In this document: one piece after another, positions 31,004 through 57,736 of the stretch
Layout: every line of letters begins with the position of its first letter
How positions within the stretch are numbered: position 1 is the stretch's first letter
Assembly (NCBI GenBank): GCA_009692115.1
Contig: SHZU01000014.1
Location: 1-58,852, forward strand
Direction: 5' to 3'
DNA from: Gemmatimonadota bacterium
GTDB lineage: Bacteria > Gemmatimonadota > Gemmatimonadetes > Gemmatimonadales > GWC2-71-9
Length of the DNA: 58,852 nucleotides
Made by a program: the position numbers and the translations under genes
Notes under the pieces: generated by a model
The model's input: only the letters and a program-made list of their open reading frames with translations
What the model was told of the DNA's origin: nothing
Databases searched by the model: none

Positions 31004-31226
31004 GGGGTCCGCGATCAGGGCCGGAGTGAGCGGCGGATATGTGATGCAACAGCCTTGGGGCGGTGGCACGGACGTTAGGCCGAACCGGGCGCTTTCCCCA
31101 GGGGGGCCTGCACCTGGAATCCACCAGACCAGACCCGACCAGACCCTCGCCGTCGCTCGACCCTCGCCGTATCTTCCGATGCGAGTTCCGTCCGACCTTT
31201 GTCACGTCTCCAGGAGACCAGTCCCA

Positions 31227-32417
31227 ATGCCTCTGGCTCGATTGATCAGGGCGGCGCTGTTGCTCGCCTCAGTTCTTGCTCTTCCCGCCCCAGCGGGGGC
31301 GCAGGACGACCCGGCTCCATTCATCGCCCGGATCGAGGCCGCCCAGTCTCCCAACCGGCAGGGCTTCGATGGCCTGACCATCCCGGAGCTGCTGGCGCGG
31401 TTCAAGGTCCCGGGCGCCAGCGTGGCGGTAATCAAGGATTTCAAGATTCACTGGGCCAAGGGGTACGGCCTCGCCGACGTGACGGCCAACCGGCCGGTCG
31501 AGGTGACCACCGCCTTCCAAGCCGCGTCGATCAGCAAGCCGGTCATGGCCATGGCCGCGGTCCGACTGGCCCAAGAGGGCCGCTTTTCGCTCGACCAGAA
31601 CATCAACTCGCTCCTCAAGTCTTGGCGAGTGCCTGAGAGCGAGCTGACCCGATCGCAGCCGGTCACGCCGCGGTCGCTCTTGAGCCATACCTCCGGTTCC
31701 GACGACGGGTTCGGGTTTCCCGGCTATGACCCCGATGCCCCGCGCCCCACCGTACCCCAAATCCTCAACGGCGAATCGCCGTCCAACGTGGGGGCCGTGC
31801 GCTTCGTCCGGCCGCCGTTCACCGGCCAGAAGTACTCGGGCGGCGGCACCGAGATGATGCAGCTCGCGTTGACCGACCTGACCGGACAACCATTTGCCGA
31901 GTTGATGCGCCAGAAAGTGCTCGACCCGCTCGGGATGACCGCGAGTTCCTACGAGCAGCCCCCGACCGGGGCGATCGCCGAGCGGACTGCCCGGGCCCAC
32001 GGCGGCGACGGAAAGGCGATGGGAGCCAAGTGGCACGTCTACCCCGAACAGGCCGCCGCCGGTTTATGGACGACGCCGAGCGACCTGGCCAAAGTCGCGA
32101 TCGAAACCCAGCGGGCCATCCAAGGTCCCGCGGGCAAGGTGCTCTCGCAGGCCAGCGCCCGCGAGATGATCGCCCCGACCGGGATGGGACCGTTTGCGGT
32201 CGGCTTCATGGTCGAGAAGCGGGGCGAGGGCTGGTACTTCATGCATAGCGGTGGCAACTGGGGTTTTCGCTGCGACTTGGTGGCCCACGTCCGGAAGGGC
32301 TATGGCGTGGTGGTCATGACCAACGGTGACAACGGCGGGGCCATCATCCGGGAAATCGAAGAGCGGGTCGCGGCCGCCTACGGCTGGGACTCGCTCGACA
32401 AGCCGATTCCCCGATAA
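31227..32417 (+). CDS. secreted serine hydrolase (beta-lactamase family)
   Basis: 396 residues from the ATG at 31227, with AGGAGA at 31212-31217 as ribosome-binding site. The signal peptide ends APAGAQ. The nucleophile motif is Ser101-Ile-Ser-Lys104, and the second motif is the Tyr of QKYSGGG. FMHSGGNWGFRC carries the HSG third motif. It is shorter than the other hydrolases and lacks the DUF3471 tail. It is followed after 22 bases by a D-aminoacylase-like gene, which suggests joint action on D-amino-acid-containing amides or peptides. Confidence 0.87.
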   Translation: MPLARLIRAALLLASVLALPAPAGAQDDPAPFIARIEAAQSPNRQGFDGLTIPELLARFKVPGASVAVIKDFKIHWAKGYGLADVTANRPVEVTTAFQAASISKPVMAMAAVRLAQEGRFSLDQNINSLLKSWRVPESELTRSQPVTPRSLLSHTSGSDDGFGFPGYDPDAPRPTVPQILNGESPSNVGAVRFVRPPFTGQKYSGGGTEMMQLALTDLTGQPFAELMRQKVLDPLGMTASSYEQPPTGAIAERTARAHGGDGKAMGAKWHVYPEQAAAGLWTTPSDLAKVAIETQRAIQGPAGKVLSQASAREMIAPTGMGPFAVGFMVEKRGEGWYFMHSGGNWGFRCDLVAHVRKGYGVVVMTNGDNGGAIIREIEERVAAAYGWDSLDKPIPR

Positions 32418-41620: not shown

Positions 41621-43486
41621 ATGCCGAGGCTAAGATCGCTCCTCGCGGTCCTCATCCCAAGCGTCCTCGCGGGGCAAACCCTCCCGCGGGTCGTCATTCA
41701 GACCACCCTGGGCCAGATCGAAGTCGAGATCGACACGGTCCACGCCCCGGTTTCCGCCCAGAACTTTCTCCGGTATGTCGACGCGAAGTTCTCCGACCGG
41801 GGCTCGTTTCATCGAACCGTCACCATGGCCAACCAGCCCAATGACGCGGTCAAGATCGAAGTGATCCAGGCCGGTGGGGACACGACCCTCCAGAAACAGT
41901 CCGGACCGATCCTGCTCGAGCGGACCACCGTCACCGGCCTGAAGCACCGGGCCGGGACGATCTCGATGGCCCGGACCGGCCCGGACACGGCCCGAGATCA
42001 ATTCTTCATCTGCGTCACCGATCAGCCCGAACTGGACTTCGGCGGCAAGCGGAATCCCGACGGGCAGGGCTTTGCCGCCTTTGGGAAGGTCGTGGCTGGC
42101 CTCGACATCGTCCGAAAGATCCAGCAAAGCCCGGCCGACGGCCAACGGCTAACCCCGGCAATCGCCATCACCCAGATCAAGCGGAATAGCATGCTGTTCC
42201 AAGCGCCACCACCACCCACGGCCTTCGTAGATGTGGCCGTGCTCGCGATGGACCAGCCTGGCGTCCTCGAGCACCAGACCGTGCTCGTGAAAGACGGCCG
42301 AGTCTTCTGGATCGGCCCGGCCAAGCAGGCCCCGTCGTCGAAGAACTACCGGGTCATCGACGGGCGGGGCCAGTTTCTGCTGCCCGGCTTTTCCGATATG
42401 CACACCCACCCCGGCCGGCCGCTCGACCTGGTCACCTACCTGGCCAACGGGATTACCACCATCCGGGTGATGTGGGGCGACACCGCCACGTTAGGTTGGC
42501 GGAAGGCGGTCGCGGCCGGCTCGCTCGCCGGACCCCGCATCGTCACGTCGGGCGCCATCATCGACGGGAGCCCGCCGTTGCAGCCATCCATGACCGTCGT
42601 GACCGACCCCGCCAAAACTCGCGCCGAGATCGCGGCCCAGCATCGGGCCGGCTACGACTTCATCAAGGTCTATAACAGCGTCCCGAAGGCGGTGTACGAC
42701 ACCATCGTTCGGGTAGCCCGGGGGTTGGGCATGCCGGTGGCCGGCCACGTTCCGTTCGAGGTCGGACTCACCGGCGCCCTCGCCGCGAAGCAGGCCTCGA
42801 TCGAGCACTTGCGAGGATACATTGCCGAGTTGGTGCCGAAGGACGCAGCCGTGCAGCCCGGGGCAACCCTCCGGTCCCGCACCGTGGCGTGGAACTACAT
42901 CGACCGGTCGCGGTTTCCGGGCCTGGTGGAGCAAACGGTCCGGGCCGGAGTCTGGAATACTCCCACGTTCGTCGTGGCGTATCACATGATGCTGCCCGAT
43001 TCGGCGTACCGGGCCCTGGCCCAACGTCCCGAGGTCAAACTGTTTCCGGGCCAAGGGGCTCCGGACCGTTCCAAGATCAGTTTCTTGGCCGACTTTACCG
43101 AGGCCGATTTTGCCGAGGCAGGGCGGGCCCTGGTGCCCCAACTGGAGTTGGCCAGGGCCCTGGCCAACGGTGGCGCCAAGCTGATGATCGGGACCGACTC
43201 GTGGCTCCAGGGGTACGCCTATCACGACGAGCTGATGCTCTTCGAGCGCGGCGGGTTCTCGCCGGCGGAGGTCCTTCGGATGGCCGCCCGGGCCGGACCC
43301 GAGTTTCTGGGTAACGCCCTGACCCAGGGCACCGTGGCACCGGGACAGGTGGCCGACCTCCAACTGGTGGGCGGCAATCCGCTCGAGTCGTTAGGCAACC
43401 TCCGGGACCGTCGCGGGGTCATGGCCCAAGGCCGGTGGTACTCCGCGGCCGACTTGAACGCCAGACTGACCGGAGGCGCCCCCTAA
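41621..43486 (+). CDS. secreted fusion of cyclophilin-type peptidyl-prolyl isomerase and amidohydrolase
   Basis: 621 residues, one uninterrupted frame with GGAG 5 bases before the ATG. A signal peptide ends near LAGQT. Residues 23-190 are a cyclophilin: VVIQTTLGQIEVEI, APVSAQNFLRYVDAKF, SFHRTV, GTISMARTGPDTARDQFFIC and FGKVVAGLDIVRKI. After a proline-rich linker (APPPPTAF) an imidazolonepropionase-like amidohydrolase begins at about residue 200: PGFSDMHTHPGRP with the metal pair His261/His263, KVYNSVPK (Lys), AGHVPFEVGL, IEHLRGY and IGTDSWL with Asp526. Each half looks complete for its fold. The cyclophilin keeps SFHRTV, QFFIC and FGKVV but lacks the strict FMIQGGD block (VIQAGGD here). Confidence 0.85.
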   Translation: MPRLRSLLAVLIPSVLAGQTLPRVVIQTTLGQIEVEIDTVHAPVSAQNFLRYVDAKFSDRGSFHRTVTMANQPNDAVKIEVIQAGGDTTLQKQSGPILLERTTVTGLKHRAGTISMARTGPDTARDQFFICVTDQPELDFGGKRNPDGQGFAAFGKVVAGLDIVRKIQQSPADGQRLTPAIAITQIKRNSMLFQAPPPPTAFVDVAVLAMDQPGVLEHQTVLVKDGRVFWIGPAKQAPSSKNYRVIDGRGQFLLPGFSDMHTHPGRPLDLVTYLANGITTIRVMWGDTATLGWRKAVAAGSLAGPRIVTSGAIIDGSPPLQPSMTVVTDPAKTRAEIAAQHRAGYDFIKVYNSVPKAVYDTIVRVARGLGMPVAGHVPFEVGLTGALAAKQASIEHLRGYIAELVPKDAAVQPGATLRSRTVAWNYIDRSRFPGLVEQTVRAGVWNTPTFVVAYHMMLPDSAYRALAQRPEVKLFPGQGAPDRSKISFLADFTEADFAEAGRALVPQLELARALANGGAKLMIGTDSWLQGYAYHDELMLFERGGFSPAEVLRMAARAGPEFLGNALTQGTVAPGQVADLQLVGGNPLESLGNLRDRRGVMAQGRWYSAADLNARLTGGAP

Positions 43487-48081: not shown

Positions 48082-49539
48082 ATGTTGACTCCCGCCTTCC
48101 GGCTCGGCGTTCTGACGCTCGCCCTTTTCTGGGGTAGCGCCCGAGCCCTCGACGGCCAAGCAATCGCCACCCATCCCCGGGTCAAAGAAGCCCTCGCGGC
48201 CTACGAAAAGTGGCTCGACGGCGAACGGGCCTTCAAGAAGATCCCCGGCATCGCGTCCGCGCTGGTCATCGACCAAGACGTGATCTGGCAGGGCGGCACC
48301 GGGTATGCGGATTGGGCCCGGAAGACGCCGGCCACCCCGAACACCCTCTACAGCATCTGCTCGATTTCAAAACTGTTCACCAGTATTTCGACGCTCCAAC
48401 TCCGCGACCAAGGCAAGCTCCGCCTCGATGATCCGGTGGCCAAGCACGTCCCCTGGTTCGCGCCGAAGACGGCCTACCCGGCCGACGGCCCGATCACCGT
48501 CGAGGGGCTGTTGACCCATGCCTCGGGATTGCAGCGGGAGTTTGCCGACACCCTCTGGGTCGAGCCGAACATGGCCTTCCCGACCATCGACGAACTCAAG
48601 CGCGACGTGGCCGGCCGCGAGGTGGCCTACCGGCCCGAGCAGTACTTCCAGTACTCCAACCTCGGCTTCACGATGCTGGGCGCCGTGGTGGAGGCCGCCT
48701 CGGGCCGGCCCTACGCCGACTACGTCCAAACCAACATTCTGGGCCCCTTGGGCTTGACCAACACCTTCTCCGAAATGCCGGCGGCGGAACGCGGGAAACG
48801 ATTGGCCATGGGCTACAGCGGTATCGACCGGGACGGCAACCGTCACCCGATGCCGTTCTATCAGACCAAGGCCATGGCGCCGGCCGCTGGCTACGCGTCG
48901 ACCGCCCTCGATCTCGCCAAGTTCGCTTCGTGGCAATTCCGGTTGCTCGCCGAGGGCGGCACGACCGTCCTCTCCGCCACCACCCTCCGGGAAATGCAGC
49001 GGGTCCACTTCCTGGATCCGGGCTGGAAGACCACCTGGGGCTTAGGGTTCGAAGTCTGGCGCCATGATGACAAGACCTTCGTTGGCCACGGGGGCAGCTG
49101 CCCGGGCTACCGAACCCAGTTGACCATGAAGCCCGACGAGAAGATCGCCACCATCGTCATGACCAACACCTTCGACACCGACGCGTCCGGGTTGGCCCAG
49201 CAGGCCTACGAGTTCCTCGGCCCCGCCGTCAAGGAAGCCCGGGCCGACACGGCCCGCACCATCGCCGCGGCCGACCCCGCGCTCGATCGGTACCTCGGTA
49301 CCTATTTGAGCTTCGGGGGCGAAATGGAAGTGATCCGGTGGCAGGGCGGGTTGGCCACGATGCAGGTGCCGAGCGCCAATCCGGTCAAGACCATCACGAA
49401 GTACCGCAAAACGGGCGACCACACCTTCCGGGAAATCCGGCCGGACGGCGCGTTAGGCGAACGAATGACCTTCGACCTCGGTCCCGACGGCCGGCCAACC
49501 CGGGCGCGGACCAACTACCTCATGCCGAGAATCAAGTGA
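48082..49539 (+). CDS. secreted serine hydrolase (beta-lactamase family)
   Basis: 485 residues with signal peptide (FWGSARALDGQA). The nucleophile motif is Ser94-Ile-Ser-Lys97, the second motif YSN in FQYSNLGFTMLG, and the third HGG in VGHGGSCPGYR. The C-terminal 100 residues (YLGTYLSFGGEMEVIRWQ) are a DUF3471-like beta domain. It is followed after 8 bases by another hydrolase of the same superfamily but clearly different sequence. Likely substrates are D-amino-acid esters, amides or peptides. Confidence 0.87.
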   Translation: MLTPAFRLGVLTLALFWGSARALDGQAIATHPRVKEALAAYEKWLDGERAFKKIPGIASALVIDQDVIWQGGTGYADWARKTPATPNTLYSICSISKLFTSISTLQLRDQGKLRLDDPVAKHVPWFAPKTAYPADGPITVEGLLTHASGLQREFADTLWVEPNMAFPTIDELKRDVAGREVAYRPEQYFQYSNLGFTMLGAVVEAASGRPYADYVQTNILGPLGLTNTFSEMPAAERGKRLAMGYSGIDRDGNRHPMPFYQTKAMAPAAGYASTALDLAKFASWQFRLLAEGGTTVLSATTLREMQRVHFLDPGWKTTWGLGFEVWRHDDKTFVGHGGSCPGYRTQLTMKPDEKIATIVMTNTFDTDASGLAQQAYEFLGPAVKEARADTARTIAAADPALDRYLGTYLSFGGEMEVIRWQGGLATMQVPSANPVKTITKYRKTGDHTFREIRPDGALGERMTFDLGPDGRPTRARTNYLMPRIK

Positions 49540-49547
49540 GACTTTCC

Positions 49548-50954
49548 ATGCTTCGTCCTATCGTCCGCGCCATCGTGCTGCTTGGGCTCCTCGCCGGCAC
49601 CCCGGCCGCCGCCCAGACGGGCCAGTTCAACCTCGAAAAGACCAAGACGGTGCTGACCGGCCTGATCGAAACCGCCATCCGGGAGCGCGGGGTTCCGTCG
49701 ATCTCAATTGCCCTGGTCCGGGGCGATTCGATCGTGTGGAAAGCCGCGTTCGGCTACGCCAACGTCCGGACCAAGACGCCCGCCACCCCGGAGACGATCT
49801 ACAGCACCGGCTCGACCTTCAAATCCGCCACCGCTACGGGGTTGCTGCAGCTCCTGGAGCAGAAGAAGCTCGACCTCGATGCCCCGGTCAACCAGTATCT
49901 CGGCAATATCCAAGTCCAAGACCGACTTCAAAGCGACAAGCCCGTCACCACCCGCCACATCCTCTCGCACTGGTCGGGGTTGAACGCGGGCGCCGTGACC
50001 AAGCCGCTCTGGGGCCGCGAGCTGCCGAAGGCCCTGGAGCAGATGGTGTCCGGGCTCTATTCGATCCGCGCGCCGGAAGCCAAGTGGGAGTACAACAACT
50101 TCGCCTTCGGATTGGCCGGGCTTCTGCTCGAGAACATTTCCGGCACCGAGTACGAAAAGTACCTGATCGAGAACATCTTAAAGCCGCTCGGCGTCGCCAC
50201 GCCGCATCCAGTGTATCCCTCGGCTGAGATGGTGGAGTTGATGGCATTGCCGTACAACGCGGGCGGCGCCACCGGCAAGCCAGTACCCGTTGCCCAGGTC
50301 CACTTCGACGTCTACCCCGCCGGCGACATCTACCTCACGGCGGAGGACATGGCTCGCTTCCTGGCCATGCACTTGAACGGCGGCACCTTCCGCGGCAAGC
50401 GGATCATTTCCGAGGCGTCGGCCAAGCTGGCCCACGAGCCGCCCTACGGCGGGACCTACGGTTTTGGTTGGAGCGTCCGGAAGGAGTCCAGCGGCCACAC
50501 GATTATTTCTCACAGCGGCGGGATTCCGGGGCAGAGCAGCTATATGATGGGCGACGTGGACGCCAAGGTCGGCGTCTACTACATGTCGAACTCGGGGGCG
50601 CCGCCCGCCATCGGTGAGGCCGCGCTCAAGTTGCTCCGGGGCGAAGAGTACGTCCCGCCGGTTGCGGTTGAACGGAAGGCCATCACGGTCGACCCCAAAG
50701 TGCTCGACCGCTACGTCGGCACCTACAACCTGGGCGTCGGGATCAGCTTGGTCGTGACCCGGGAAGGCGCCGGCCTAGTCCTCCGGCAACACGGGTCCGA
50801 CGCTCCCATGGCGCTTCTCCCCGAGACCGCAACGACCTTCTTCGTCAGAGGCCAGGAGTTGATTGTCACCTTCGTCGCGGGGCCAACCGGGGCGATCGAC
50901 AAGTTGGTGGTTGGAAGCGGTGCCTCCGCGCTGGAAGCCAAGCGGAGCCAGTAG
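49548..50954 (+). CDS. secreted serine hydrolase (beta-lactamase family)
   Basis: 468 residues from the ATG at 49548, signal peptide ending GTPAAAQ. The nucleophile motif is Ser89-Thr-Phe-Lys92, an unusual x-x pair compared with the SISK/SVTK of its relatives here. YNN is in WEYNNFAFGLAG and HSGG in ISHSGGIPGQS. The C-terminal YVGTYNLGVGISLVVTREG is the beta domain. It is second in a two-gene operon. Confidence 0.87.
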   Translation: MLRPIVRAIVLLGLLAGTPAAAQTGQFNLEKTKTVLTGLIETAIRERGVPSISIALVRGDSIVWKAAFGYANVRTKTPATPETIYSTGSTFKSATATGLLQLLEQKKLDLDAPVNQYLGNIQVQDRLQSDKPVTTRHILSHWSGLNAGAVTKPLWGRELPKALEQMVSGLYSIRAPEAKWEYNNFAFGLAGLLLENISGTEYEKYLIENILKPLGVATPHPVYPSAEMVELMALPYNAGGATGKPVPVAQVHFDVYPAGDIYLTAEDMARFLAMHLNGGTFRGKRIISEASAKLAHEPPYGGTYGFGWSVRKESSGHTIISHSGGIPGQSSYMMGDVDAKVGVYYMSNSGAPPAIGEAALKLLRGEEYVPPVAVERKAITVDPKVLDRYVGTYNLGVGISLVVTREGAGLVLRQHGSDAPMALLPETATTFFVRGQELIVTFVAGPTGAIDKLVVGSGASALEAKRSQ

Positions 50955-53692: not shown

Positions 53693-53808
53693 CGCCATGA
53701 TCATGCCCTATGGGAGAGCGGGACCGGAATATTTTACCCGGGGGAATCGGCGACAACCGGCAGAGCCCGGTACTACATTGAGTACCCATGAATCCCCCCA
53801 GAGAATCC

Positions 53809-55173
53809 ATGACCAGACGACTCGCCTGCCTGCTGCTGTTGGTGCCCGGTGCCCTCGCGGCCCAGCAACCCGCCGGCTCCTCCGCCCTGCTGGCCCGGAT
53901 CGACTCGATCGTCACGGCGGAGATGGCTCGCACCCAGACGCCGGGGGCCGCGGTTGCGGTTGAGCATCACGGCCAGATCTTGCTGGCCCGCGGCTTCGGG
54001 CTCGAGAACGTCGAGTCAAACTCCCGGACCAGCGCCGAGACCGTGTTCCGGATCGGGTCGGTCACGAAACAGTTCACGGCAGCCGCGATCATGCAACTAG
54101 TCGAGCAAGGCAAGATCGGGCTCGACGACGAGATGACCAAATACCTGCCCGACTATCCCACCCAGGGCAATCGGGTCACCATCCGCCACCTCCTGACCCA
54201 TACCTCGGGCATCAAGAGCTACACCAGCCTCGGCCCCAAATTCTGGAGCGAGTCGAGCCGGCTCGACCTCACCAACGACCAGATGCTCGCCCTGTTCAAG
54301 GACATGCCGTTCGACTTCAAACCCGGCGAGAAGTACGCCTACAACAACTCGGCCTTCTTTCTCCTCGGTGTGATCATCGAGAAGGTCACCGGGATGCCGT
54401 ACCGGAAGTATGTCGAGGAGAAAGTGTTCCAGCCTCTCGGCCTGGCGTCGAGCTCGTACTGTGACGATCGCGCCATCGTCCCCCACCGGGCCGCGGGGTA
54501 CGAGGCTGCCGCCGGCACGGTGTCCAACGCGGCGCCCTTGAGCCTCAACGTCCCCGGTGCCGCCGGATCGCTCTGCTCCACGGTCCTCGACTTGGTCCGG
54601 TGGCAGCGGGCGTTTGACGAGGCTCGTCCGGTCTCGGCGGCCTCGCGCGACCAGGTCCGAACCCCCGCCACCCTGAACGACGGCAAGCCGACCAGCTACG
54701 GGTTCGGCGTCAGCCTCCGGCCGTTCGAATCCCACCGGTCGTTCGCCCACAGCGGCGGGATCAACGGCTTTGCCTCGTGGCTGGCCCGTTACCCGGACGA
54801 CGAGTTGACCGTCACCGTACTCACCAACTCGGGCGGTGGACCGGCGGTCCGGATCGGTGAACTCGTGGCCCGCGTGGTGCTCGGCATGCCCTTGCCGACC
54901 ATGGCGGACCTACCGGTGCCGGCCGCCAATCGGGCGGAGTTGGTTGGGAAGTACGAGATGAGCGGCACGACGTTGGTCGTCACCGACGGCCCGCAGGGTC
55001 TCGACATTTCAATCGGCGGCGGCGCCCCGGGCCGCCTGCTATATCAGGGAAACGGCGAGTTTCGGATCAAGACCATGCCGGATGCGATCGTCCGGCTCGA
55101 TCGGGCCGCCGGAGCACGGCAGTTGGTCATCGTGCTCGGTGGGAGCCCGATGGTGGCAAAGCGGATTCCCTGA
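53809..55173 (+). CDS. secreted serine hydrolase (beta-lactamase family)
   Basis: 454 residues from the ATG at 53809 (53788 is an alternative). Signal peptide ends GALAAQQ. The nucleophile motif is Ser84-Val-Thr-Lys87, the second YNN in KYAYNNSAFFLLG and the third HSGG in FAHSGGINGFAS. DUF3471-like beta domain from VGKYEMSGTTLVV. It is the sixth serine hydrolase of this superfamily in the window. Confidence 0.87.
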   Translation: MTRRLACLLLLVPGALAAQQPAGSSALLARIDSIVTAEMARTQTPGAAVAVEHHGQILLARGFGLENVESNSRTSAETVFRIGSVTKQFTAAAIMQLVEQGKIGLDDEMTKYLPDYPTQGNRVTIRHLLTHTSGIKSYTSLGPKFWSESSRLDLTNDQMLALFKDMPFDFKPGEKYAYNNSAFFLLGVIIEKVTGMPYRKYVEEKVFQPLGLASSSYCDDRAIVPHRAAGYEAAAGTVSNAAPLSLNVPGAAGSLCSTVLDLVRWQRAFDEARPVSAASRDQVRTPATLNDGKPTSYGFGVSLRPFESHRSFAHSGGINGFASWLARYPDDELTVTVLTNSGGGPAVRIGELVARVVLGMPLPTMADLPVPAANRAELVGKYEMSGTTLVVTDGPQGLDISIGGGAPGRLLYQGNGEFRIKTMPDAIVRLDRAAGARQLVIVLGGSPMVAKRIP

Positions 55174-55187
55174 ACCGAGCGGAGTAG

Positions 55188-55493
55188 GCCGAGGTCTGCT
55201 ATCATCTCAATCAGGCAAAGGCGCGGTACCTCTTCGTCGGCGCCCGGGCGCTCCAACTCTGGGGCAGCGCCCGCGCCACCTGCGACATCGACATCCTGAT
55301 CGAGCCCACCGAGGAGAACGCTACCCGGGTCCTCGAGGCGCTCGGCCATGTCGGGTTCGGCTTTACCCGCGAATGGGCGGCCAAGGAGATCGTCGCCAAG
55401 TTCGGGACCATCATCGGAGATTCGCCGCGGGTCGACATTCTCGTCTTGGTGGAAATCAAGCGACTGCGCGGCACCCGGCCTCCGGAGCGATGA
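55188..55493 (+). pseudogene. remnant of a nucleotidyltransferase (AbiEii/DUF6036-like)
   Basis: The frame reads RYLFVGARALQLWGSARATC, DIDILIEPTEENATRVLEAL, IIGDSPRVDIL and then VLVEIKRLRGTRPPER and a stop. The G-[AG]-x-A...DIDI nucleotidyltransferase motif is intact. There is no ATG, GTG or TTG between the preceding stop (55185) and the motif, so the start is lost. The segment joining VDIL to LVEIKR, normally 40 or more residues, is absent. A third short gene in this area with a missing centre. Confidence 0.6.
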
Positions 55494-55513
55494 CCAAAAC
55501 CATGGAGCACTTC

Positions 55514-57736
55514 ATGAGTCGAGTCCAGCCATTCCTTTGGTGCCTGCTCTCCGCCCTCTCGGTCGCGAGCGCCGCCGCCCAGAGCAAGCCTACCATCGAT
55601 CAGTTCATGAGCCCCGGCTTCCCCTCCGAGCTAGTCTCCGCCCGGAAGGCCGACCGGATCGCCTGGCTCGCCGAGGAGCGGGGCCGCCGGAACGTCTTCA
55701 CCGCGGCGGCTCCGGCGTGGCAGCCGGTCCGGCTCACCAGCTTCATGAACGACGACGGGGTGGTGCTCTCGGATCTCGCGATTGCCGATGACGGCGCGAT
55801 CGTCTCGTTCGTCCGGGGGAGCGCTCCCAACCGGGAGGGCTGGGTCGCCAATCCGAGCAGCGATCCGCGGGGACCGGAGCGGGCCATCTGGGCCGCCCGG
55901 ACCAGTAGAGCCGGCGCCTGGCGCGTCATCGAAGGCGGCGCCCCGGTGCTCTCGCCCGACGGCCGCTCGATCGCGCTGGTCAGGGACGGGCAGATCGTGG
56001 TGGTGCCATCGAGCCGGACCGGGACCACGGCGGCGGTCGACAAGACCCTGCTCCCGACGATCAAAGCGTGGGGACGAAATGGGGGTCCGGAGTGGTCTCC
56101 GGATGGATCCAAGATCGCGTTCGTCAGCGTGCGCGACTATCACTCGCTGATCGGGGTCTACGACGTGCGAGCCCGGACCCTGGCCTACGCCTCGCCGAGC
56201 GTCGACTTCGACGCGAGCCCGACCTGGTCGCCCGATTCGAAGCGGATCGCGTTCATCCGGCGTCCGGGCACACCCTATGGCCAGCAGGCGGTGCCGGGGC
56301 TCCCGGGGATCATCTCGCAGGCCCCGCCGACCGCCGGGCAGCGGGCGGCCCGGGCCCCGAACAGCCGAGGCCCAGGTCAGGCGCCCGACTCCGACGAGAA
56401 GCCGGCCGACGGCCTCTACCGCGCCACCCTCAAGGGCGGCTACGGCCTGGCCCTCATGGTGGCGCCGATCACCGGCGACACCGGGGTCGAGGTCTGGCAC
56501 ACCCTGCCTAACGGCAAGACCTTCCAGGCCATTCAGCGAATTACCTGGGCGGGCTTAAGCCTGATCTTCCAGCAGGAGCCCGAGGAGTGGATCCGCTACT
56601 ACGCGGTGTCCGCCGGCGGCGGCACCACCACCCCGATCGAGCTGAGCCCCGGCGAAGGCGCCCTCGAAACCACGGACCTCTCCCCCGACGGCGCCACCCT
56701 CTACTACGCCAGCAACGCCCTGGACATCGACCGCCGCCACCTCTGGAAGGCACCGACCTCCGGAGGCCCGGCGGTCCGAATCACCCAGGGCGACGAGATC
56801 GAGATGTACCCCGCCGCCATCGCGTCCGGCCGCCAGGTCGCCGCTCTCACCGCTTCGGCCACCCGCCCGCTCTCGGTGAGCGTGATCGACATCGCAAGCG
56901 GCCGGGCGCGGGTCATTTATCCGATGTTGAGCAAAGAATTCCCGGTGGCGGAGTCCGTCGTACCGGAACCGGTGGTCCTCAAAGCGGCCGACGGGTTGAG
57001 CTTCCACAACCAGCTCTTCCTCCCCAAGGACCAGAAGCCGGGCCAAAAACGCCCCGCCATCATCTTCGTCCATGGCGGGCCCAGCCGGCAAATGCTCCTC
57101 GGCTACCACTACATGGACTTCTACCACTTTGCCTACGCCGTGAACCAGTGGCTCACGACCCAGGGCTACGTGGTGCTGTCGGTGAACTACCGGACCGGGA
57201 TCGGCTACGGGAAGACCTTCCGGACGGCTCCGAAGTCGGGGTGGCTCGGCAACGCCGAGTATCAGGACGTGGTCGCAGCGGGGAAATATCTCCAGCAGCG
57301 GGCCGATGTCGACCCGGCGCGAGTTGGGATCTGGGGGTTGTCGTATGGCGGGGTGCTGAGTTCGCAGGCACTGGCCCGAAACTCCGACATGTTCGCCGCC
57401 GGCGTCGACATGGCGGGCGTCCACCTCTGGGGCTCGACCCTCGACTCGACCGACGTCAGCTATCAATCGTCGGCCATCGCGGCCATCGATGGGTGGAAGT
57501 CGCCGGTGCTGATCTGGCACGGCGATGACGACCGAAACGTCCCATTCAGCCAGACCGTGGGGCTGGTCCAGCTCCTCCGGCAGAAAAACGTGCCCTACGA
57601 GTTGATCGTGGTGCCGGACGACACCCACGAGACCCTGATCTACGACCGGTGGATGTATCTCTGGGGCCGGATGGAGCGGTTCCTGAAGACGCATCTCTGG
57701 AACAAGCCTTCGGCCGCGACGGGATCGGGCCGATGA
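55514..57736 (+). CDS. secreted prolyl-oligopeptidase-family (S9) peptidase
   Basis: 740 residues from the ATG at 55514 (an ATG at 55490 overlaps the remnant's stop). Signal peptide ends SVASAAAQ. The N-terminal beta-propeller has repeats such as PEWSPDGSKIAFVS and PTWSPDSKRIAFIR. The hydrolase domain carries the catalytic Ser610 in WGLSYGG, the Asp in HGDDDRNVPF and His705 in DDTHE. It cleaves short peptides outside the cytoplasm, in keeping with the other secreted hydrolases. Its stop overlaps the CPBP gene start (ATGA). Confidence 0.9.
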   Translation: MSRVQPFLWCLLSALSVASAAAQSKPTIDQFMSPGFPSELVSARKADRIAWLAEERGRRNVFTAAAPAWQPVRLTSFMNDDGVVLSDLAIADDGAIVSFVRGSAPNREGWVANPSSDPRGPERAIWAARTSRAGAWRVIEGGAPVLSPDGRSIALVRDGQIVVVPSSRTGTTAAVDKTLLPTIKAWGRNGGPEWSPDGSKIAFVSVRDYHSLIGVYDVRARTLAYASPSVDFDASPTWSPDSKRIAFIRRPGTPYGQQAVPGLPGIISQAPPTAGQRAARAPNSRGPGQAPDSDEKPADGLYRATLKGGYGLALMVAPITGDTGVEVWHTLPNGKTFQAIQRITWAGLSLIFQQEPEEWIRYYAVSAGGGTTTPIELSPGEGALETTDLSPDGATLYYASNALDIDRRHLWKAPTSGGPAVRITQGDEIEMYPAAIASGRQVAALTASATRPLSVSVIDIASGRARVIYPMLSKEFPVAESVVPEPVVLKAADGLSFHNQLFLPKDQKPGQKRPAIIFVHGGPSRQMLLGYHYMDFYHFAYAVNQWLTTQGYVVLSVNYRTGIGYGKTFRTAPKSGWLGNAEYQDVVAAGKYLQQRADVDPARVGIWGLSYGGVLSSQALARNSDMFAAGVDMAGVHLWGSTLDSTDVSYQSSAIAAIDGWKSPVLIWHGDDDRNVPFSQTVGLVQLLRQKNVPYELIVVPDDTHETLIYDRWMYLWGRMERFLKTHLWNKPSAATGSGR

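Follow-up and report, generated by a model that had tools for sequence, protein, structure and literature searches.

We suggest that one gene in the window (the whole stretch of DNA analysed, 58,852 nucleotides, which is all of contig 14 of a Gemmatimonadota draft genome) is probably the product of a real, recent and lineage-specific fusion of two once-separate genes for secreted proteins, a cyclophilin and an amidohydrolase, and that its two domains are joined by a tether, with no catalytic coupling between them. The pairing is a new one of known parts, each half being otherwise an ordinary secreted-protein gene. No literature on a cyclophilin-amidohydrolase fusion and no described protein with this pair was found, which agrees with an earlier note on this DNA that knew of no characterised protein of the kind. 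If real, the gene offers a clean, young case of a secreted enzyme gaining a domain by end-to-start joining and reduction of the inner leader; the practical impact is small.

The fused gene

As the earlier note had read it, the gene is a single unbroken frame of 621 codons on the forward strand, from the ATG at 41621 to the stop at 43486, as seen in the ORF list and its translation. Profile searches found both domains in it, PF00160 at residues 24-187 (E 1.6e-29, 103.6 bits, profile positions 2-158 of 159) and PF01979 at residues 253-605 (E 6.6e-16, 58.9 bits). Against Pfam cut-offs of 21.7 and 25 bits, respectively, this two-domain result is far above chance level. Both halves also model well, with a mean pLDDT of 92 and a pTM of 0.78 for the whole chain in AlphaFold2, and a pLDDT of 87 and a pTM of 0.87 for the cyclophilin part by itself. 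GC content by codon position is coding-like in both halves and through the joint, and rough Nei-Gojobori comparisons with G003, a genome of the same genus, indicate purifying selection on the cyclophilin half (dN 0.28, dS 0.77) and on the hydrolase half (dN 0.27, dS 1.31). The host genome is a 3.1-Mb draft in 23 contigs and is 97% complete; the named relatives that match it most closely are Gemmatimonadota. Scans for promoter and terminator consensus sequences around the gene found none, a result that is uninformative for this phylum.

Residues 1-18 (MPRLRSLLAVLIPSVLAG; 41621-41674, forward strand) form a predicted signal peptide, with a basic n-region followed by the hydrophobic core LLAVLIPSV (Kyte-Doolittle 2.63), and residues 1-17 are disordered in the AlphaFold2 model. 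Homologous stand-alone cyclophilins likewise begin with leaders. The earlier note's reading of a secreted two-domain fusion is supported.

A cyclophilin with a divergent pocket

The cyclophilin domain spans residues 22-189 (41684-42187, forward strand) on the evidence of the PF00160 match, the fold match and the stand-alone relatives; the earlier note's claim of a whole domain stands. The model matches 1j2a (labelled E. coli cyclophilin B K163T mutant) with a Z of 23.8 and an rmsd of 1.9 over 153 residues, and the half is 55-69% identical to stand-alone Gemmatimonadota cyclophilins. In human CypA numbering, HMMER alignments to PpiA place the catalytic region at 41813-41869 (forward strand), where R65 is equivalent to Arg55, E80 (41858-41860) to Phe60, V81 to Met61 and Q83 to Gln63, with an NQP insert at residues 71-73 (41831-41839); E137 (42029-42031, forward strand) aligns with Trp121. 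Arg55 and Gln63 are kept in the fused protein, and the pocket residues Phe60 and Trp121 are absent, with Glu at both positions. The motif SFHRTV, which had been taken as a departure from the cyclophilin core, holds a canonical FHR at 63-65; the real departures are E80 and E137. Among 28 cyclophilin homologues R65, NQP and Q83 are invariant, position 80 is E, A, T or D, and position 137 is S, E or A. Because Phe60 and Trp121 are absent throughout these homologues, their absence is a trait of the clade and not of the fusion.

Arg55, Phe60 and Gln63 have been named the most important residues for cyclophilin catalysis (PMC4898713). In human PPIA the W121E substitution abolishes activity, and natural isoforms without Trp or His at this position are inactive on the test peptide (PMC2911226). 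E. coli PpiA carries Phe at the Trp121 position in our alignment. With both pocket residues replaced by Glu, and missing clade-wide, the domain is expected to isomerise standard peptides weakly or not at all; the invariant NQP insert might rebuild the isomerase pocket. We note, as a by-product, that this secreted Gemmatimonadota clade, which keeps the catalytic Arg and the NQP insert without two key pocket residues, is possibly a group of non-standard or non-catalytic cyclophilins, and hence a testable case of possible loss of standard isomerase activity.

Separate genes in the relatives

Every homologue found of either half is a gene of its own, and in the genomes that were compared the two genes lie on different contigs or at a great distance from each other; the earlier note had named such a separation as a finding that would speak against its reading. 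G003 has the two orthologues on different contigs, the cyclophilin being 68% and the hydrolase 65% identical; G005 carries a hydrolase orthologue (66%) and lacks a close cyclophilin. In three genomes assembled as single contigs (G070, G089 and G100), some 0.2 to 2.4 Mb separate the cyclophilin from the best amidohydrolase matches. At one locus (L056), a single case, a 39% cyclophilin match lies about 2 kb downstream of its amidohydrolase. The host genome holds no second orthologue of either half, its next best cyclophilin being 31% and its next best amidohydrolase 34% identical. Of 395 genomes of the phylum, about 84, the host among them, carry the cyclophilin clade (matches better than 1e-35). 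At those of its loci that were read, the stand-alone members end at the equivalents of residues 188-192, save for a few short tails. Long frames at some cyclophilin matches (509, 699 and 708 aa) were considered as fusions and rejected: these are upstream extensions, and the cyclophilin ends at its normal C-terminus.

A search for the same architecture in other genomes, which the earlier note had proposed, did not find it. No fused homologue was detected in 288 genomes of the order apart from that of the host; few candidates were scored per genome, so that a very divergent fusion in the order could have been missed. Among 53 cyclophilin-bearing genomes of the class, none has a match that spans both halves, and the search of the phylum returned no fused homologue. 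Within the limit of the candidates scored per genome, the architecture was thus not found in more than one genome, as it would be in a conserved fusion family, and its presence in one genome only, a draft assembly, counts against the fusion reading.

Several features of the stand-alone cyclophilins were seen in passing. In four genomes (G008, G018, G014 and G081; loci L109, L110, L114 and L145) the gene is convergent to one for a secreted M61 glycyl aminopeptidase, and at L109 and L110 a class I (E and Q) tRNA-synthetase-type gene lies upstream. Contig C1 of G055 carries two copies of the clade (L112 and L113) about 0.8 Mb apart. At the G003 locus (L105, 9428-10117, reverse strand) the signal peptide is in another frame than the domain, pointing to an indel in the G003 assembly.

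The distribution of the two genes bears on the possibility that the cyclophilin domain helps, from within the same chain, to fold the exported hydrolase domain. Folding assistance is a role of periplasmic cyclophilins such as PpiA, and the cyclophilin domain, being N-terminal, would leave the translocon first. However, the orthologous hydrolases of G003 and G005 are encoded without a cyclophilin, and the isomerase pocket is divergent; we consider such a role unlikely.

The joint between the two halves

By comparison with the ends and starts of stand-alone homologues, the joint comprises residues 190-200 (S MLFQAPPPP T; 42188-42220, forward strand). The stand-alone cyclophilin of G003 ends in ...ILRVVRR*, and the window protein has ...ITQIKRN at this place and continues with S190 and M191. 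The codon of Met191 (42191-42193) was once the start of the hydrolase gene, the orthologues of G003 and G005 starting with ATG CTG at the same position (G003, MLRLAAVLLQATVPPAAF; G005, MLTLAMMQAATTAF; window, MLFQAPPPPTAF). That the joint lies exactly at the C-terminus of the one protein and the start of the other argues for a true fusion. The hydrophobic stretch that follows the hydrolase start reaches Kyte-Doolittle maxima of 2.27 and 2.38 in the relatives, against 0.44 across the window linker. The leader thus appears to have been reduced to MLFQAPPPP in the fused gene, a modest contrast given that the leaders of G003 and G005 are short. Since a leader buried within a fused chain would hamper its export, the loss favours a real fusion. 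The proline-rich linker of the earlier note is present as APPPP (195-199), but it is a leftover of the hydrolase's own N-terminus and not an added linker. The codon of Met191 is still ATG, with GGAA a few bases upstream, which would also allow translation of the hydrolase by itself.

It might be argued that the gene is an artefact of sequencing or assembly, in which two cistrons of one operon had their frames joined by a one-base error. The DNA of the joint, CGG AAT AGC ATG, with its short G run, permits this, as an extra base after CGG would yield an in-frame TAG one base before the ATG; the genome is a 23-contig draft, the fusion is in no other genome, and Met191 is conserved as the hydrolase start in relatives. 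Against this, a separate hydrolase would begin with MLFQAPPPP and have no export leader, unlike nearly all its relatives, composition is even across the joint, and a random chimera is not expected to join the end of one gene to the start of another in frame. The apparent loss of the hydrophobic leader makes an error at the joint less likely, and we regard an artefact as distinctly improbable. A chimeric contig was examined separately and rejected, composition and tetranucleotide distance being even on either side of 42190. Synteny was likewise discarded as an explanation of the joint: the flanks of the window gene are unlike those of either half in eight genomes (G001, G003, G005, G008, G018, G043, G055 and G014), the comparison giving only weak matches within large paralogous families.

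A prolidase-like amidohydrolase and its setting

The amidohydrolase domain spans residues 201-621 (42221-43483, forward strand) on PF01979 and fold matches. Its two-metal set is complete, with H261-x-H263 (42401-42409), K349 (42665-42667), the predicted carboxylated bridging lysine, H376 (42746-42748), H396 (42806-42808) and D526 (43196-43198), metal ligand or general base, all on the forward strand and all invariant in 59 homologues; the earlier assignment of a whole domain with H261, H263 and D526 as ligands is hence borne out and extended. The label of imidazolonepropionase-like did not survive, as the NCBIfam HutI model scores 35.3 bits against a cut-off of 298.15 and the fold comparison gives a Z of only 28-29. 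The modelled hydrolase instead matches prolidase 3feq, carboxypeptidase 3be7 and bottromycin amidohydrolase 6i5s at Z 37-38, with a phmmer match of 1.2e-16 to 2p9b, and both kinds of comparison put it closest to these enzymes. The bottromycin amidohydrolase, an enzyme with two zinc ions, cleaves off a follower peptide (PMC10885120). Substrates of related enzymes include at least dipeptides, N-acyl amino acids and ochratoxin and, according to a recent preprint, taurine-conjugated bile salts. By analogy with these reactions, the hydrolase would likely act on peptides or N-acyl amino acids.

The neighbourhood of the gene fits peptide and amino-acid use: the window also encodes an S9 prolyl oligopeptidase, an amino-acid permease, an aminotransferase, four PF00144 proteins and another amidohydrolase. 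The four PF00144 genes (beta-lactamase-type serine hydrolases; 31026-32417, 48082-49539, 49338-50954 and 53788-55173) share a contig of 58.9 kb, two of them overlapping as ORFs, and the S9 gene (55082-57736) lies beside PF00144 genes of the window. The fused protein has 53 matches in the 3.1 Mb of the host genome, which suggests a strongly expanded amidohydrolase set. On contigs C1, C4 and C5 four PD40 propeller-amidohydrolase proteins were confirmed by Pfam, in frames of 1,049-1,248 aa (L188 1831-5313, L188 5151-8894, L189 6-3293 and L190 2512-5658), and several further frames of this size also match.

The earlier note had proposed a coupling in which the cyclophilin interconverts the cis and trans forms of X-Pro bonds and passes the suitable one on to the active site of the hydrolase. 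The resemblance of the hydrolase to prolidases, the S9 prolyl oligopeptidase gene in the same window and the retention of the catalytic Arg and Gln would suit this idea. Nevertheless, no relative that was examined has the halves joined, and a cyclophilin clade without Phe60 and Trp121, the latter replaced here by the very residue that inactivates human PPIA (PMC2911226), is unlikely to isomerise a substrate for the hydrolase. There is no sign of the two activities working together. Small X-Pro peptides, moreover, isomerise spontaneously within minutes, so that a tethered isomerase would be of little benefit, and we find the coupling very hard to credit. Scarcely probable, too, is a secreted two-domain enzyme, selected as a unit in this lineage, whose divergent cyclophilin binds proline-containing peptides and delivers them to the tethered prolidase-like hydrolase.

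Proposed origin and role of the fusion

We posit, in keeping with a real and recent fusion, that the hydrolase gene came to sit directly downstream of a stand-alone gene for a secreted cyclophilin, that the cyclophilin stop codon was then lost, and that the hydrolase's own leader was reduced, leaving a single polypeptide that would be exported by the signal peptide of the cyclophilin. Outside the cytoplasm, the two-metal hydrolase, of the prolidase/carboxypeptidase (COG1228-like) type, would most likely supply nutrients by cleaving small peptides or N-acyl amino acids. For the cyclophilin domain, whose standard prolyl-isomerase activity would be weak or absent, the most likely role is that of a module for export, solubility or binding. 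In the likeliest case, being exported together as a single chain is all that the two domains share.

Comparison with known systems

The cyclophilin half resembles E. coli PpiA and other bacterial periplasmic cyclophilins in fold (Z about 23, 40-42% identity in structural alignment), in its signal peptide, predicted here, and in its catalytic Arg and Gln. It departs from them in an insert of about ten residues that carries the invariant NQP, in the Glu at the Phe60 and Trp121 positions, and in the attached hydrolase. The other half shares with the COG1228-type prolidases and carboxypeptidases (3feq/3n2c, 3be7, 3mtw Cc2672 and 2p9b) the fold (Z 36.6-38), the two-metal ligands and the overall length, but only 22-26% identity in structural alignment; its clade has GHVP and EHL blocks, and the fused protein has the N-terminal cyclophilin. 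The bottromycin amidohydrolase PurAH/BotAH (6i5s) is the best full-length sequence match in the PDB (4.3e-22), with IKVY and GHVP blocks in common and a Z of 38.0 over 393 residues. In contrast to that enzyme, the window protein is fused and predicted to be secreted, and the surrounding genes that were examined showed no RiPP cluster. Imidazolonepropionase shares the superfamily and the fold but is clearly more distant. Finally, the PD40 propeller-amidohydrolase proteins of the same genome are likewise large and place an N-terminal partner domain before the hydrolase, but their partner is a propeller, whereas that of the window protein is a cyclophilin.
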